DNA from: a virus
Virus record (IMG/VR): IMGVR_UViG_3300021964_000087
Span: 1-55,237 of that record
Direction: 5' to 3' (one strand)
Length of the DNA stretch: 55,237 nt
Shown: positions 595 through 51,513 of the stretch, piece by piece
Numbering within the stretch: the stretch's first letter is position 1
How the letters are laid out: each line of letters begins with the position of its first letter
The notes under the pieces: model-generated
Database searches by the model: none
What the model saw: only the letters and a program-made list of their open reading frames with translations
What the model was told of the DNA's origin: nothing
Position numbers and translations under genes: made by a program

Positions 595-625
595 AAAAAA
601 CTGCTCCACCTTGTAGGCAGAGCAG
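595..625 (-). terminator. Intrinsic terminator after the PqqA-like gene
   Basis: Minus-strand hairpin with outer stem CTGCTC/GAGCAG (6 bp), a TG/TG internal mismatch, inner stem CCT/AGG and a 3-base loop, followed directly by TTTTTT (595-600). It starts 18 bases past the stop codon of the 23-residue gene and should end that transcript. Confidence 0.75.
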
Positions 626-643
626 GTGATACCTAAAACGCTA

Positions 644-715
644 TTACTTGTTCATTACATACATTGTAACTTCAAAGCCAAAGCGCATTTCTTCTGCTGT
701 AGGTTTAGTCCACAT
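644..715 (-). CDS. PqqA-like 23-residue peptide
   Basis: The gene is below usual annotation length. The peptide begins MWTKPTAEEMRFGFEV and continues TMYVMNK. It matches the PQQ precursor peptide PqqA family: same length as the 23-residue enterobacterial form, the MW-KP start, the R-x-G-x-E-V-T core, and the Glu15-x3-Tyr19 pair that is cross-linked to make pyrroloquinoline quinone. An AAGGAG Shine-Dalgarno lies 8 bases before the ATG. The gene has its own promoter, structured leader and terminator. No pqqB, C, D or E is in the window, so cofactor synthesis would need host enzymes. Its role in the phage is unknown; it could be a true precursor, a decoy for host PqqD/PqqE, or an unrelated peptide that kept the motif. 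Confidence 0.8.
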   Translation of the reverse strand: MWTKPTAEEMRFGFEVTMYVMNK

Positions 716-756
716 AATGTTTCTCCTTGTTAAGATTAAATTATGTAAACAGTTCA

Positions 757-779
757 CGGGAGAGATGAATCAGGTCCCG
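757..779 (-). other. Second stem-loop in the PqqA-like gene leader
   Basis: CGGGA and TCCCG pair across a 13-base loop in the transcribed leader, with a few more pairs possible outside a small bulge (TCA/TGA). No T tract follows, so it is not a terminator. It may be part of a structured 5' leader. It matches no riboswitch consensus I know. Confidence 0.4.
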
Positions 780-792
780 CTTGAGTCTACCA

Positions 793-828
793 AAATAAAA
801 GTGCAACATTTCTGTTACACTCTTATTT
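793..828 (-). other. Long 5'-terminal hairpin in the PqqA-like gene leader
   Basis: Two 16-base arms (793-808 and 813-828) pair completely if G-U pairs are allowed, around a four-base loop that reads GAAA in the minus-strand RNA. The promoter -10 box ends at 835, so the hairpin would begin at or next to the 5' end of the transcript. This could protect the mRNA 5' end or act as an attenuator. A terminator role is less likely because it would stop the transcript almost at once. Confidence 0.65.
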
Positions 829-834
829 AATACT

Positions 835-862
835 ATTATAGATTGTTTTTAAGAAAAATCAA
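835..862 (-). promoter_or_regulatory. Sigma70-type promoter for the PqqA-like gene
   Basis: Minus strand: TTGATT (857-862), a 16-base spacer, then a perfect TATAAT (835-840). It lies between the oxygenase stop codon at 883 and the long hairpin, so the peptide gene is an independent, probably early, transcription unit. Confidence 0.7.
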
Positions 863-882
863 TAGTGAAAATCATTAAAACA

Positions 883-1464
883 CTATAAGCCTATATTAAA
901 ACTAATTGCTATTTTTTCTCCGGCTGGTTGAAGTCCATTACCGTGTAGCATATCATTTTTAAAAATTAAAAGAGTTCCGGGTAAGCATTCGAAGGCAATT
1001 TCTTCTGCTGTAAATAAATTTGGATTTTGCATCTGTATTTTGTATTGCTTTGGATCATCATAAAAATGTAAAAAACAATTCTGTGGTGCTTTTACATAGT
1101 ATACTCCTGATAATAAGCAATCTCCGTGATTATGCGGAAAGAGGAAATCATTTTCGTTACTAATATTAAACCACATTTTGTGAAACTTACACTCCTCTAT
1201 CAAATGATGATCATAATCAAGAGTTTTCATAAATTCAATTGAATAATCAAATATAGATTTTGATAGATAATTTAATTTAGGGTCTTTATTAAGTGTATTA
1301 ATAGTTTCTGCTGTTGAGTTAACATTTAGTGTATTTGATCTTTTAGTTTCATGTAATTCACAATAATTTTTTAGAACCTGTTCAGTTTCTGGGAGTTTAT
1401 CTAAGTGTAGATTTGGTATTTGATATACTGGTTTAGGGAATAAAGAATGTAATTTTGGTTCCAT
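883..1464 (-). CDS. 2-oxoglutarate/Fe(II)-dependent oxygenase family protein
   Basis: A 193-residue protein of the small phage 2OG-Fe(II) oxygenase type (2OG-FeII_Oxy_5-like). The expected landmarks are in order: H111-x-H113-x-D115 in PHNHGD followed by the strand SGVYYV, a GTLLIF strand, H174 in the MLHGN segment, and K184 in GEKIAISFN as a candidate 2-oxoglutarate ligand. These enzymes use Fe(II), O2 and 2-oxoglutarate to hydroxylate or otherwise oxidise a substrate, which cannot be told from sequence. A TAAATA late core lies 6 bases upstream of the ATG, so the mRNA would be almost leaderless. It is one of five such proteins in the window and lies apart from the island at 22901. Confidence 0.8.
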   Translation of the reverse strand: MEPKLHSLFPKPVYQIPNLHLDKLPETEQVLKNYCELHETKRSNTLNVNSTAETINTLNKDPKLNYLSKSIFDYSIEFMKTLDYDHHLIEECKFHKMWFNISNENDFLFPHNHGDCLLSGVYYVKAPQNCFLHFYDDPKQYKIQMQNPNLFTAEEIAFECLPGTLLIFKNDMLHGNGLQPAGEKIAISFNIGL

Positions 1465-6044: not shown

Positions 6045-6833
6045 TTATTTTGCTCCTTTAGTTTCTTCTAGTGCTTGTAGAAGTTGATTTCTAATAGAAG
6101 CACGTAGGTCTTCACCTTCTTTCACACGCTGCATTGGATTGTCACCGCCAGCAACCTTAGGATGTGTTCCCTTCATTCTGTTCATGCCGCCTGACATCTT
6201 CTTAGTCATGAAATGAATATCTCTTTCATCTTCATCAGGCTCGTTTTCCCATGCTTCGTCTTTTTCTTTTTTCTCCATGTCATGGTCATCCATGTCATGA
6301 TCACCGTCATTGTCTCTATCAACTGACTTGTGAAGTTTTTCTTCCTCGTCATGATCTTTTTCATGGCGATCTAATTTACCGTCATCATCATAATCGTTGT
6401 CTTCACCTTCGTCGCCCATTGCTTTAATAGCAACCATATCGTCTTCACCGCCTGGCATGTCGTCATTGTCGCCGTCGAAGTCTGGAATTAGTTTATTAAT
6501 AGGTTTAGGCATTGGAGGTCCTTCTGGTGCATCCATTGGTCCATCCATTGGTCCATCCATTCCCGGTGCCATGATAGATAATGTAGGCATCTCTGGCTTT
6601 TCCGGTTGATTGATCATATCCGGATTAACTTTTGTCATTAATCTTAATACATCATCAATAGCGTCACCTTGTGCATTAATGTTAATGCTCATCGAGGCCT
6701 TGTCCTTAGGCTCTGGTGTAGGCATATTTGGTGCCATTGGCATTCCGCATTCTTCTGTGCTTTGCTCTACAGGTGCCTCTGTCTTTACTGTATCCAGTTC
6801 CTGCATTTTGGCTAATAATTCATTAAAGTTCAT
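6045..6833 (-). CDS. Acidic protein with calcium-loop-like repeats (262 aa)
   Basis: A very acidic protein. The N-terminus (MNFNELLAKMQEL) and C-terminus (SIRNQLLQALEE) look helical. Between them is a Pro/Met-rich linker with GPMDGPMD repeats. Three Asp-rich loops then resemble EF-hand or dockerin calcium loops: near residues 118-130 (DFDGDNDD), 147-158 (DYDDDGKLDRHE) and 172-185 (DRDNDGDHD). The flanking helices of a classical EF-hand are poor, so calcium binding is a guess. It lies between two other head/tail-region genes and could be an internal or assembly protein. No function is known to me. Confidence 0.6.
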   Translation of the reverse strand: MNFNELLAKMQELDTVKTEAPVEQSTEECGMPMAPNMPTPEPKDKASMSININAQGDAIDDVLRLMTKVNPDMINQPEKPEMPTLSIMAPGMDGPMDGPMDAPEGPPMPKPINKLIPDFDGDNDDMPGGEDDMVAIKAMGDEGEDNDYDDDGKLDRHEKDHDEEEKLHKSVDRDNDGDHDMDDHDMEKKEKDEAWENEPDEDERDIHFMTKKMSGGMNRMKGTHPKVAGGDNPMQRVKEGEDLRASIRNQLLQALEETKGAK

Positions 6834-6834
6834 A

Positions 6835-7425
6835 TTAGTTACTCCCTACAGGACTTTTTACCCCTGCTTTATCTTGTTTTAATTTTGGTGTATCCTGATA
6901 AACATCTGCTTTTAGTTTATCAGTCCCTAATTCTTTTTTTCTTTCTTTTGCTTCTTTAGAAAGTTCTTTTAAAAATCCTTTGTTAAAGTCGTCACCAAAA
7001 TATTCCTTGTGTTTAACTTTCACGCCATCCTTATATTCGTTGTCGTGTAGTAATGCACCTTCATAATCTACATTAGACCCTGCTGTAATTTGATCAATTT
7101 CAGTAGGACTAGCACTGTTTCTTACCTTATAGTAACCTGCTTGACAACAGTCCATTTCAAAAATTTCTTTTTCAATTTCTGTTGTAGTTAGTGGATATTC
7201 AGTCATTACATCAAACATATGAACTTCCATATTCTTAAGTTCTGGAAAATCATGTGGTAGTTCAACAACAGGAGTAGACTTCATCTGTTCAAACTGCATA
7301 ATACCGCGACCTTCCAATCTTGCTTTTAATTCGTCGGCAAAACCTTCAGGCAAGTCACCAGCAATTTTAACCTTAAAACTATAGGTTTTTTTGCTTTCTG
7401 TCAAATATTCTTTAAACGTCTTCAT
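6835..7425 (-). CDS. Conserved hypothetical with capsid-targeting-like N-terminus (196 aa)
   Basis: The protein starts MKTFKEYLTES, very close to the capsid-targeting sequence of T4 internal head proteins (MKTYQEFIAEA), and contains a gp21-type cleavage site (L-T-E|S). The following 100 residues form an alpha/beta domain with FKVKIAGDLPEGF; the C-terminal 70 residues are Lys-rich and probably disordered. This N-terminus suggests it is taken into the prohead and trimmed by gp21. The ATG is 5 bases after a TAAATA core with no Shine-Dalgarno. A head location is inferred, not shown. Confidence 0.65.
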   Translation of the reverse strand: MKTFKEYLTESKKTYSFKVKIAGDLPEGFADELKARLEGRGIMQFEQMKSTPVVELPHDFPELKNMEVHMFDVMTEYPLTTTEIEKEIFEMDCCQAGYYKVRNSASPTEIDQITAGSNVDYEGALLHDNEYKDGVKVKHKEYFGDDFNKGFLKELSKEAKERKKELGTDKLKADVYQDTPKLKQDKAGVKSPVGSN

Positions 7426-25484: not shown

Positions 25485-26110
25485 TGGAAATGATAGACCT
25501 TTTTTCTACAAAAATATACAAAACAAAAATTGATAAAAATTTGTATAATTATGATGAACTTTTGTCAATTATTGAAGAAAATTATAAAATTCAACCAAGT
25601 AGGTTGGACGTAACAGATTTTACTGCTAATACTCATAACTACTATGAGGGATGGAATAACGAAAAATTTAAAAAATTAAATTTAGAATATCTATCAAAAA
25701 TTTATTTTAAAGAAACTAAAAAATTCTTTACTTACTATAAAATTGAAGAGAATGTAGATTGGTCAATGTCGATTGTAAACCTAAGCGCAAGTAAAAAACA
25801 TCAAGGTATTGCTATACACGACCATCTTCCTGCCTTCTATTCAACTGTTCATTATCTAAGATTAACACAAGAGCAGCAAAAAATAAGATTTTTTAATCCG
25901 TTAAGCATAGGAAAATATACAGGGTCTTTATATAATCTTGACAAGATAAAAAACCATATTGATAATTCAAACCTATATCAATCTTGGACTTTTGATGTAG
26001 AAGAAGATGATATGATATTTTTTCCATCATATTTAGAGCATGATGTAGTTTATGGTGAAACTGATGATTTGCGAATTTCTATATCTAATAATATTTATTT
26101 GGAACAATAA
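25481..26110 (+). CDS. 2-oxoglutarate/Fe(II)-dependent oxygenase, island gene 5
   Basis: A 209-residue protein of the 2OG-FeII_Oxy_5-like type, starting IDLFSTKIYKTKI. The proximal motif is GIAIHDHLPAFYSTVHYL (H113 and H115 region, followed by the usual YSTVHYL strand); the distal His is H187 in YLEHDVVYGE, with R198 near the end. It is the closest in the island to the protein at 883-1464. ATGA overlap at the start, TAATG at the end leads straight to the first halogenase. Confidence 0.8.
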   Translation: MMEMIDLFSTKIYKTKIDKNLYNYDELLSIIEENYKIQPSRLDVTDFTANTHNYYEGWNNEKFKKLNLEYLSKIYFKETKKFFTYYKIEENVDWSMSIVNLSASKKHQGIAIHDHLPAFYSTVHYLRLTQEQQKIRFFNPLSIGKYTGSLYNLDKIKNHIDNSNLYQSWTFDVEEDDMIFFPSYLEHDVVYGETDDLRISISNNIYLEQ

Positions 26111-27567
26111 TGAAAGAAATAAAGAAAATTTTAATTGTAGGTGGCGGAACTGCTGGATTAATTACGGCACTAATTCTTAAGAAGCATTTAAACATGCAGG
26201 TTGATGTTGTATATTCCAAAGATATAGGAATTATTGGTGTAGGTGAAGGATCAACCGAACACTTCAGGGATTTCTTACAATTCGTAGGCATCGATCATTA
26301 CGAATTACTTAAACAGTGTGATGCTACATACAAGTCAGGAATAATGTTTAAGGATTGGGGTTCAAAGGATTATCTACATAATGTGGGCGAACCCTTTAAC
26401 AATAGAGTGGGCCAGTATCCTATGGTTTATGCTAATCAAATAGCCAAAGGAGATACAATAGTAACTTCTCCGTTACTATGGAAAAATAAAATTAACAAAT
26501 GGTTTATCAACCAGAGAGAAGAGTTTCCATTTAATCAATTTCATTTTAACACACATAAATTAAACGACTTTCTAATAACCATTGCAAAGGACATGGGCGT
26601 TGGTCTTTATGATGATAAAATCGTAGATGTTATATTAGATGAGTCTGGAGATATAGCATATCTACAAGGAGAAAAAACTCTACATAATTATGACTTCTAT
26701 ATTGATTCAACAGGGTTTAGAAGAATATTAATGAATAAACTAGGTGCTAGGTGGGAGTCTTTTGGAAAATATCTAAAAATGAAGTCTGCAATTACATTTC
26801 CTACAGGAGACACTGAAGAATATAATTTATGGACGCTGGCAAAGGCCATGAAAAATGGATGGATGTTTAGGATCCCTGTTTGGGGTAGGCATGGTAATGG
26901 TTACATATATGACAGTGATTATACCGATGCTGAACAGGCAAAAAAAGAAGTAGAAGAATACTTTGGACATGATATTGAGGTAGGCAAGGAATTTAATTTT
27001 GATCCAGGTAAATTAGATAGAGCATGGATAAGAAATTGTGTTGCCGTAGGACTTAGTGGCAGTTTTGTCGAACCGTTAGAGGCAACTAGTATCGGTTCTT
27101 CCATAGTCCAAAGTTTTATGCTGATGCATAAAATTGTTAATTATGATCAAAACACAATTGACAAATATAATAAATCGTTTGATGACATTCTATACAACAT
27201 AAGAGATTTCATTATTCTACATTATATAAATGATAGAAGAGATTCTGATTTCTGGAAAGACATTAGCAAATTAGAACTTCCAGAGTCGCTATTAAAAAAT
27301 ATAGAAACTTGGAAAAACAAATTACCGCTTGATGAAGATTTTAATACGGTATCAGATTATGTTCTATTTAAGGCTGCAAACTTTACCGTAGTTATGGAAG
27401 GATTAAATCTCTTCAACCGAGAAAACATAATTAAAGAATATAATTCATATCAATATCAATTTAAGGATTATGCCGTAGGAGATTTAAGGCATCATTTTGA
27501 GTTTAATAAATCAATAACAACTATAGGTCACAAAGAATATATTTCCATAATAAGAAAATATTTTTAA
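26110..27567 (+). CDS. Flavin-dependent tryptophan-halogenase-like protein 1 (485 aa)
   Basis: The FAD-binding start is ILIVGGGTAGLITA (residues 8-20). K75 in ATYKSGIMF matches the catalytic Lys of tryptophan halogenases (K79 in PrnA). E324 in SFVEPLEATSIG matches the second catalytic-site Glu region. The signature WxWxIP is altered: GWMFRIP at 250-256 has Phe at the second Trp position. Such enzymes use FADH2 and O2 to form HOCl or HOBr and halogenate electron-rich rings. Substrate and partner flavin reductase unknown. It overlaps the previous gene (TAATG) and the convergent 155-aa gene by 4 bases. It may be a halogenase or a related FAD monooxygenase. Confidence 0.85.
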   Translation: MKEIKKILIVGGGTAGLITALILKKHLNMQVDVVYSKDIGIIGVGEGSTEHFRDFLQFVGIDHYELLKQCDATYKSGIMFKDWGSKDYLHNVGEPFNNRVGQYPMVYANQIAKGDTIVTSPLLWKNKINKWFINQREEFPFNQFHFNTHKLNDFLITIAKDMGVGLYDDKIVDVILDESGDIAYLQGEKTLHNYDFYIDSTGFRRILMNKLGARWESFGKYLKMKSAITFPTGDTEEYNLWTLAKAMKNGWMFRIPVWGRHGNGYIYDSDYTDAEQAKKEVEEYFGHDIEVGKEFNFDPGKLDRAWIRNCVAVGLSGSFVEPLEATSIGSSIVQSFMLMHKIVNYDQNTIDKYNKSFDDILYNIRDFIILHYINDRRDSDFWKDISKLELPESLLKNIETWKNKLPLDEDFNTVSDYVLFKAANFTVVMEGLNLFNRENIIKEYNSYQYQFKDYAVGDLRHHFEFNKSITTIGHKEYISIIRKYF

Positions 27568-28102: not shown

Positions 28103-29695
28103 ATGCTCAAAAATTTAAATAAGATAGTCATAGTAGGAGGCGGTAGTGCAGGATGGATGACTGCTTCCATACTAATAAAGTTTTTTCCAAATTATGATAT
28201 TTCATTGATAGAAAGCCCCGATTATCCTACCGTAGGAGTGGGAGAAAGCACGTTGCTTGGAATACGAAATTACGCAAATTTTCTAGAAATTGATGAAAAA
28301 GATTTCATGTCAAAAACAGATGCTAGTTATAAAATGAGCATTAAATTTACGGATTTTTATGAAAAAAATGACGGTGGATTTCACTATCCTTTTGGGTTTC
28401 CTCATCTAGAGGGAACAAATAGAGGCATATATGATTGGTTTATTAAGAAAGCACTTTATCCTGATACCCCTAATAATGATTTTGCAAGATATTTTTTCCC
28501 ATCAGCAGCGTTATACGAACAGAATAAATTTAGTAACAATTTAGATAACAAATTCTTAGGATGGGATCATCAGCATCATACATCCTATCACTTTGATGCT
28601 ACTAAATTTGGTAATTGGCTTAGAGATAACTATTCAATTCCTAGAGGAGTAAGATTAATTAAATCTACCGTTATTGAGTCAATTGTAGGTAACGATGGAA
28701 TAGAAAAATTAATTCTATCTAACGGTGAATCAATCAGTGCTGATCTATTTGTGGATTGCACAGGGTTTAAGAGTTTGCTATTAGGTAAAGCACTGCAAAC
28801 TAAGTTTAATGATTTTTCTCACATGCTTCCTAACAATAGAGCTTGGGCAACTAGGATACCATATAAGAATCAAGATGAAGAACTAGAACCTTTTACAAAT
28901 TGCACAGCACTAGGGAATGGTTGGGTATGGAACATTCCCAGTTGGTCAAGACTAGGAACGGGTTATGTTTACAGTGATAACTTTATCGACCCAGAAGATG
29001 CTAAAGAAGAATTTAAACAGCATCTAATGTCAGATAAAATGATTCATCCTAGATCGCAACAAGAAGTCGACTCGCTTGAATTTAAGGATATTCCCATGCG
29101 TGTGGGAATACACGACGAGTTGTTTGTGAAAAATGTTGTTGCTATTGGGCTGAGTGCTGGATTTATAGAACCCTTAGAATCGAACGGTTTGTTCAGCGTT
29201 CATAGTTTTCTAGATAAACTGATTAAGGTATTGCTTTCAGGATCAGTAAATCAATTTGATAGAGATTGTTTTAATGCTGCATGCAAAGGACAGTTTCAAA
29301 ATTTTGCTGATTTTGTTGCCATGCACTATGCATTTAGTAAAAGAAACGATACCGAATATTGGAAGGCAAATAACAATAGAGTATATGATCGAGAAATGAT
29401 AAATTTAAAACACAGTCATAACGGAGTGGGATTTTTTGATTATATGAATACCAAAAACTTCAGTAAGGATTCTTTAAGCACAGGCCTTGGATTAATATGG
29501 ATATCCACTGGAATGAATCATCATCTTGTTGATAGCATTGATGTATTAAATTGGCAATATGAGGAAGATGCTAATTTCAAAGAAGATTTTGCGGAGTTTT
29601 TTAATGATCGTCACGAACTCATAAAAAAAGTGTGGGAAGAAGCAAAACTCCAACCCACACTATACGAATATCTTAAGAAAAATATCTATAACTAA
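28103..29695 (+). CDS. Flavin-dependent tryptophan-halogenase-like protein 2 (530 aa)
   Basis: All halogenase landmarks are intact: GGGSAG in IVIVGGGSAGWMT at the N-terminus, K77 in ASYKMSIKF, the signature GWVWNIPSW at residues 273-281 (WxWxIP), and E359 in GFIEPLESNGLF. Its length fits the family and the cyanophage Syn10 halogenase VirX1, which was shown to accept many substrates and favour iodide. Substrate here is unknown. The gene has its own TATAAATA promoter and AGGAAA site and ends 6 bases before the convergent adhesin gene. Confidence 0.93.
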   Translation: MLKNLNKIVIVGGGSAGWMTASILIKFFPNYDISLIESPDYPTVGVGESTLLGIRNYANFLEIDEKDFMSKTDASYKMSIKFTDFYEKNDGGFHYPFGFPHLEGTNRGIYDWFIKKALYPDTPNNDFARYFFPSAALYEQNKFSNNLDNKFLGWDHQHHTSYHFDATKFGNWLRDNYSIPRGVRLIKSTVIESIVGNDGIEKLILSNGESISADLFVDCTGFKSLLLGKALQTKFNDFSHMLPNNRAWATRIPYKNQDEELEPFTNCTALGNGWVWNIPSWSRLGTGYVYSDNFIDPEDAKEEFKQHLMSDKMIHPRSQQEVDSLEFKDIPMRVGIHDELFVKNVVAIGLSAGFIEPLESNGLFSVHSFLDKLIKVLLSGSVNQFDRDCFNAACKGQFQNFADFVAMHYAFSKRNDTEYWKANNNRVYDREMINLKHSHNGVGFFDYMNTKNFSKDSLSTGLGLIWISTGMNHHLVDSIDVLNWQYEEDANFKEDFAEFFNDRHELIKKVWEEAKLQPTLYEYLKKNIYN

Positions 29696-50999: not shown

Positions 51000-51431
51000 T
51001 TACTTCTGAACATCAATGTTAGCAAGTGTGAATCCATCACCTAGGATTGCATCATCACCAGTTGCTGTTAATTGATATGGTAAGTGAATCATTCCTGTTG
51101 GATCGTTATCAGGCTGACAACTTACTGTTCTATTGTGTAACTTGGTTACATAGTATGTTGCTGAGTCATCTAAGTTTGTATCAGCATCATCATCTACCGT
51201 TACGCGAATGTTAAACTCACCTGCTGCCGGTGTTGCTTTTCCTACTAGTTTTAGTTTTTCAGAACTTGAATTGTTCTTAACTAAAAATTGTAGCGATCCT
51301 CTCTGACGATCAATGTATAAAGGATCAGCAATATCACCTGAAATAACGCCGCCTGTTGAAAATCTAGCAGCGGATACTTCGATCTTTGCAGATCCTAGTC
51401 CTATTTTTCTTTTTTGAATTGGTCTTCCCAT
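51000..51431 (-). CDS. Conserved virion-region protein (143 aa)
   Basis: Starts MGRPIQKRKIGLGSAKI with a Lys/Arg-rich patch, then beta strands (SLQFLVKNNSSSEKLKLVGK, EFNIRVTVDDDADTNLDDSA, TYYVTKLHNRTVSCQ). I recall a similar MGRPI-type protein near gp23 in marine T4-like phages, with no function. AAGGAG precedes the ATG behind a structured leader. It may be a decoration or fibre-foot protein. Confidence 0.6.
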   Translation of the reverse strand: MGRPIQKRKIGLGSAKIEVSAARFSTGGVISGDIADPLYIDRQRGSLQFLVKNNSSSEKLKLVGKATPAAGEFNIRVTVDDDADTNLDDSATYYVTKLHNRTVSCQPDNDPTGMIHLPYQLTATGDDAILGDGFTLANIDVQK

Positions 51432-51450
51432 TTTGTTTCTCCTTAAGTTG

Positions 51451-51513
51451 ACGTTCTAGGTCTACGCGGATGGTTACCGCATAAGTCCGCCCTGCGGCAC
51501 ACTTATTAGACAT
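51451..51513 (-). other. Structured leader upstream of the 143-aa gene
   Basis: Minus-strand leader with two stem-loops: AAGT-GTG-CCGC with GCGG-ACTT around an AGG loop, and GCGG with CCGC around TAACCAT. The element CGTAGACC (51459-51466) and a nearby ACGT recur in the leader at 47224-47243. A 50-codon frame starting MSNKC at 51513 exists but overlaps the next gene and has no ribosome site, so I do not call it a gene. Confidence 0.4.

Follow-up and report, generated by a model that had tools for sequence, protein, structure and literature searches.

A stand-alone pqqA gene with a palindrome and a covarying leader RNA in a T4-like phage

Bacteria of the family Methylophilaceae have 3-12 copies of pqqA and one set of the other pqq genes (PMC4109929), and the supply of PqqA is reported to be rate-determining in Methylovorus (Ge 2015, as cited in PMC11317620). 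In the parts of the literature on which we draw (PMC4109929, PMC9851590, Ge et al. 2015), these orphan genes are stand-alone, are accompanied by a single pqqBCDE set and encode the same peptide as the gene described below, but they are chromosomal. A phage gene of this kind has already been reported once, in VP_266 from Lake Baikal (PMC7678222), a T4-like Methylophilaceae phage for which an aid to methanol oxidation was proposed. VP_266 is one case, it also carries a methanol dehydrogenase, and the part of that report used here does not describe regulatory elements. In the methylotroph Methylophaga, a c-di-GMP riboswitch is listed as preceding a pqqA gene (PMC12530212), and the OM43 phage Melnitz has a glutamine riboswitch and a tmRNA (PMC9004378), although this riboswitch is a different RNA from the one described here and the paper makes no mention of the Melnitz pqqA.

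Here, we analysed a stand-alone pqqA in a virus record of 55,237 bases (the window). The window represents part of the genome of a T4-like myovirus, as a first-pass annotation of the DNA had supposed; a T4-type large terminase, a tail sheath and a gp23-type head protein were found in it. That annotation also pointed to PqqA-like genes in marine T4-like phages, and Melnitz indeed has one, in addition to the published Baikal case. On the evidence given below, the phage probably supplies PqqA to the host PqqBCDE under host-type control. As far as the literature and Rfam were searched, the breadth of pqqA across methylotroph phages, the palindrome common to phages and hosts, and the leader RNA are new; for the palindrome and the leader, no report was found in that literature, including that on the host orphan genes. 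The case for a phage metabolic gene is usually made on gene content only, and a phage pqqA with a host-type palindrome and a covarying leader would be a direct, testable sign of tuning to host physiology. A PQQ regulon is also indicated, as is a candidate new RNA regulator, in streamlined methylotrophs that play an important part in coastal methanol turnover.

Layout of the pqqA unit

The 23-residue peptide encoded by the window gene was described as PqqA-like in the first-pass annotation, and it scores above the cut-offs of both Pfam PqqA PF08042 (40.8 bits, E 2.1e-10, cut-off 21.1) and the NCBIfam equivalog TIGR02107 (38.8 bits, cut-off 20). The Glu-x3-Tyr pair that is cross-linked, Glu15 and Tyr19, is intact. 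The features of the locus are the following:

601-625, minus strand: intrinsic terminator, an 11-bp stem followed by a T run
715-647, stop codon 646-644, minus strand: pqqA, 23 amino acids, MWTKPTAEEMRFGFEVTMYVMNK, from the open reading frame and the PqqA model matches
723-728, minus strand: ribosome-binding site AAGGAG, with the same spacing in phage relatives
743-750, minus strand: GUUUACAU, the P1 3' strand, with a predicted alternative pairing to AUGUGGAC (715-708) over the start codon
745-790, minus strand: conserved leader RNA with helices P1 (790-785/750-745), P2 (780-775/761-756) and P3 (771-769/766-764)
793-828, minus strand: folded hairpin of 16 bp with a GAAA loop, where the 5' end of the RNA is predicted
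835-862, minus strand: predicted promoter, -35 TTGATT at 862-857 and -10 TATAAT at 840-835, with an N16 spacer
862-878, given as plus-strand sequence: 17-bp palindromic operator over the -35, ATAGTGAAAATCATTAA, consensus CTAATGA-N3-TCATTAG

The proposal of a stand-alone unit with a strong ribosome site, a 5' hairpin, a second stem-loop and a terminator is borne out by these sequences, in which the second stem-loop is real and forms part of the conserved leader RNA. The limits first drawn for the unit, 595-862, contain all of these parts but end just short of the conserved operator. The -35/-10 pair of the proposed sigma70 promoter is also present, with 10 of 12 consensus matches. This match is at the level of chance (9 promoter-like sites found, 9.2 expected in such AT-rich DNA) and its strength has no significance without other evidence; the predicted promoter is supported by its position relative to the palindrome, and it looks activator-assisted and not plain sigma70. 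Terminator-like sites follow pqqA at 51 of 129 phage loci and 116 of 140 host loci, against 2 of 127 and 7 of 139 random segments, and the whole predicted transcript folds much better than its shuffles (z = -5.3). Counterparts of the 5' hairpin, GAAA-capped and of 13 bp, occur in the relatives L017 and L075; the hairpin is shorter in L064 and absent from L019 and L255. It is a lineage-specific element, whose role may be to shield the RNA at its 5' end.

Linkage to pqqBCDE is lacking near pqqA in the window. Such linkage is not a strict requirement for PqqA, and most host copies are also unlinked. Judged by sequence, the window gene is a bona fide, stand-alone phage pqqA. Directly upstream of the unit there is a gene for a 2OG-Fe(II) oxygenase (883-1464, minus strand), with its stop codon a few bases past the palindrome. 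The window phage also has two tryptophan-halogenase-like genes (phrog_2928), at 26110-27567 and 28103-29695 on the plus strand.

Phage carriers and the fate of the peptide

A tblastn search of 50,697 phage records gave ten full-length matches, all in phages of Methylophilales or Methylophilaceae or in one environmental podovirus. The carriers are Venkman, P19250A, MEP301, MEP401, MEP402, four Melnitz strains and the podovirus, and their deposited taxonomy is Kyanoviridae, Zobellviridae or unclassified Caudoviricetes. In published phage genomes the 23-codon gene is left unannotated, as in five isolates, or overlaid by an ORF annotated on the opposite strand, as in Melnitz (L269) and the environmental podovirus MW202481 (L270). 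Two further matches, named as Acinetobacter phage, were rejected; CAKLQF020000010.1 (L271) holds polyphosphate kinase and pqqBC and is apparently bacterial DNA. A scan of IMG/VR returned at least 120 pqqA rows, in which every copy read has exactly 23 codons; the peptide has 23 residues in all of the more than 130 phage copies read. Sorted by flanking sequence, the 132 distinct phage loci form 61 unrelated groups. As is required of an auxiliary metabolic gene, pqqA is host-derived and intact in lytic phages, among them six isolates of known methylotroph hosts, and it is under purifying selection. Other PqqA types are found on contigs that also have terminase, portal or head genes, which makes it probable that phages infecting other PQQ-making hosts have pqqA as well. 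In relatives L061 (1471), L066 (6393) and L048, whose head gene is 76-77% identical, pqqA adjoins the head protein gene, while in the window (644-715), L017 and L255 it is on the terminase side; the unit therefore occupies different places in related T4-like phages.

For the other pathway genes, 42 phage records were searched, comprising the window, six complete isolates, one complete environmental phage and 34 other phage contigs. None of the 42 has PqqE above the cut-off, PqqD or a PQQ alcohol dehydrogenase (PQQ-MDH), and pqqB is missing from all 137 IMG/VR phage contigs sampled. The lack of pqqB-E noted in the first-pass annotation agrees with this, with no pqqD and no pqqE above cut-off in the window, where the absence covers a 55-kb fragment of a larger genome. 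That a PQQ dehydrogenase is carried along, as in the Baikal phage, was rejected for these 42 records, which differ from VP_266 in this respect. The hosts show a similar separation of pqqA from the pathway. Each of the 80 host-family genomes sampled has 1-12 copies of pqqA, 131 of 143 host pqqA loci have no pqqB within 1.2 kb downstream, and the three copies of the OM43 genome KB13 are all more than 100 kb from pqqE. In the OM43 hosts L188 (about 6723-6990), L209, L235 and L238, two pqqA genes lie in tandem about 200 nt apart, and the first of them, of the MWTQP type, bears the leader RNA.

Three options had been put forward for the peptide, namely that host PQQ enzymes act on it, that it blocks or mimics the host pathway, or that it is a modified peptide of a new kind. 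The first is the best supported, by purifying selection, by the orphan host pqqA and by the common operator, and it is very likely that phage PqqA is a substrate for the host enzymes. On this reading, a T4-like phage that infects a marine OM43-type methylotroph would carry its own copy of the host pqqA unit. Its 23-residue peptide would be the precursor from which host PqqD, PqqE, PqqB and PqqC make PQQ, the cofactor used by the XoxF methanol dehydrogenase. Because one PqqA is consumed per PQQ, the 69-bp gene would be the cheapest means of increasing PQQ, or of keeping up its level, in the infected cell. Hosts rely on the same device, with several dispersed pqqA and one pqqBCDE set. Carrying only pqqA makes sense, because PqqA is a consumed substrate and works in trans.

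The two other options are not needed, and the intact substrate residues count against both of them. Conservation of Glu15 and Tyr19 in related phages had been set beforehand as a check, and both residues are invariant in all copies read. E15 and Y19 were required by the pattern of the first scan; when the scan was repeated with both positions left free, E and Y were still present in 255 of 255 sites. R11, G13 and F14, which were free in the first pattern, are invariant as well. For phage pqqA as a whole, pN/pS is 0.17; in the core it is 0.045, a value lowered by the residues that the scan pattern fixed. The commonest phage peptide, found at 35 loci in 34 nucleotide variants, is identical to the host consensus. 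These substitution patterns indicate strong purifying selection on E15, Y19 and the whole core. A decoy or inhibitor that occupies PqqD, PqqE or a host peptidase, lowers PQQ and shuts down methanol oxidation would bind the same enzymes, and it would fit phages that carry the precursor only. Such a peptide could lose the cross-linked residues, but these are kept in every copy, the core is conserved like that of a substrate, and the commonest sequence is that of the host, which makes a decoy improbable. About equally improbable is a modified peptide with another function, such as a signal or a lanthanide-related peptide. The orphan pqqA of Methylobacterium extorquens respond to the neodymium source, and a role in lanthanide uptake has been suggested for them (PMC11317620), but the phage peptide is indistinguishable from host PqqA and its gene has the same palindrome as the pqqB operon.

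The palindrome common to phage and host

De novo motif searches, run separately on the upstream regions of phage and host pqqA, returned the same 17-bp palindrome, which also stands before host pqqB operons. Six host genomes contain 12 sites that differ from it at no more than one position, and 11 of these precede pqqA or a pqqB operon. A matrix trained on host sites was applied to 55 independent phage clusters, and in 36 of them the top-scoring segment of the contig was the one upstream of pqqA; scores are poor in about a third of the clusters, some of them with other PqqA types. The contigs with other PqqA types (L003/L009, L012/L015, L059/L115/L118, L062, L071/L097) are mostly without the palindrome. 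The phage lineage with a PqqA ending in IANR (L036, L105, L328, L344) has the leader RNA, and L036, its scored copy, is without the palindrome. In the window the palindrome is the best match to the host matrix, at 14.4 bits, which is not exceptional alone (the maxima of simulated 55-kb sequences average 12.2 and reach 18.0); what gives it weight is its position, together with the population of sites.

The operator is centred on 870; this point and the first base of the -10 hexamer are 30 bp apart, which puts the centre at about -42 from the predicted transcript start. Phage spacings fall into two classes, of about 30 bp, as in the window, and about 52-53 bp, which correspond to -42 and -64 and are roughly two helical turns apart. 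At 62% of host loci, exactly 53 bp separate the centre from a -10-like hexamer, and a second half-site lies in the interval. The simplest inference is that a putative activator of the host PQQ regulon also reads the phage gene. Transcription would be set by this palindrome, presumably the site of that activator, and there is a strong likelihood, on the motif evidence, that phage pqqA shares the transcriptional control of the host.

Most of the isolate genomes checked have the palindrome as their best or nearly best site, and together with the leader RNA it is kept with the gene, as would be expected if copies of either element sequestered a host regulator or ligand in trans and the peptide were secondary. 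The fixed distances of the palindrome from the -10 and the placement of the RNA against the ribosome site are, however, cis positions, and the coding sequence is itself under purifying selection, so that titration of this kind is very unlikely.

The leader RNA

A search pattern derived from the second stem-loop, which contained no pqqA letters, was found only at pqqA; it occurred in 35 IMG/VR contigs, and pqqA follows directly in every contig with enough downstream sequence. The internal loops CUCAA and GAWCU are conserved, and the window leader matches the RNA model with 104 bits. All three helices covary in 22 phage sequences, whose alignment was not fitted to the model. In 37 host and phage sequences, aligned by fitting to the model, compensatory changes occur in 14 of 15 pairs, 94% of cells pair, and the covariation score is 0.709, against 0.235 when shuffled and at most 0.142 when slid. 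It is highly improbable that phage pqqA is unused passenger DNA, recently picked up by chance from hosts with up to 12 dispersed pqqA copies. The substitution patterns of codons and RNA already count against this, with compensatory changes in the leader and almost as many nucleotide sequences as copies for a small number of peptides, and so do the flanking sequences, which form at least 61 unrelated groups.

Matches of a first RNA model at 20-30 bits covered the ribosome site and start sequence only, and a core-only model was built. Among 80 host-family genomes, seven each gave a single strong match to it, always before pqqA; all seven genomes are of 1.2-1.4 Mb and include KB13 and LSUCC strains, and the palindrome is about 80 nt upstream of the core. 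The leader was missing from Methylophilus, Methylopumilus and other non-OM43 hosts, and from most phage copies. The host of the window phage is most likely an OM43-clade bacterium, because the leader RNA is confined to OM43-type hosts among the family genomes searched. An identity with a known Rfam family was rejected: no family, those for c-di-GMP included, reaches its gathering score, which also sets the leader apart from the Methylophaga riboswitch, and the nearest by position is DUF2815 RNA (17.4 bits against 41.2).

Substitutions in the P1 3' strand keep its pairing with the start region, where the sequence is fixed by the protein. In constrained folds of the window, the start is predicted to be paired at 1.00 with P1 blocked and at 0.71 with P1 formed. 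The group of the window behaves in the same way, with the start codon paired at 1.00 with P1 blocked and typically at 0.5-0.7 with P1 formed, and the energies are nearly equal. In hosts and some other phages it is the ribosome site that is covered when P1 is open, and the effect is weaker (0.46 against 0.26 in hosts). A 5' UTR that sequesters the start codon in all host and phage pqqA found no support, as the hosts are equal to shuffles. These folds suggest a switch-like layout in which P1 favours translation: when P1 is formed the start region would be free, and when P1 is open its 3' strand would lie over the start codon. Translation of the phage gene would be set in this way by a leader RNA that one host pqqA copy also has.

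As expected of a riboswitch, the leader has a conserved structure with covarying pairs and lies in the 5' UTR of a single gene, and it is likely to be a cis-acting regulatory RNA. That it is a true metabolite riboswitch is a more tentative reading. As tentative is its placement in a new riboswitch class that would sense PQQ, a PQQ intermediate or a methylotrophy signal and control pqqA translation in OM43, the phages having copied leader and operator. If true, the riboswitch reading would wire phage pqqA into host cofactor homeostasis at two levels. The window has another RNA at 51429-51501 on the minus strand, the curated cis-regulatory motif freshwater-2 (RF02980, 58.4 bits), which extends as far as the start of the gene 51431-51000, not far from the gene for the major head protein.
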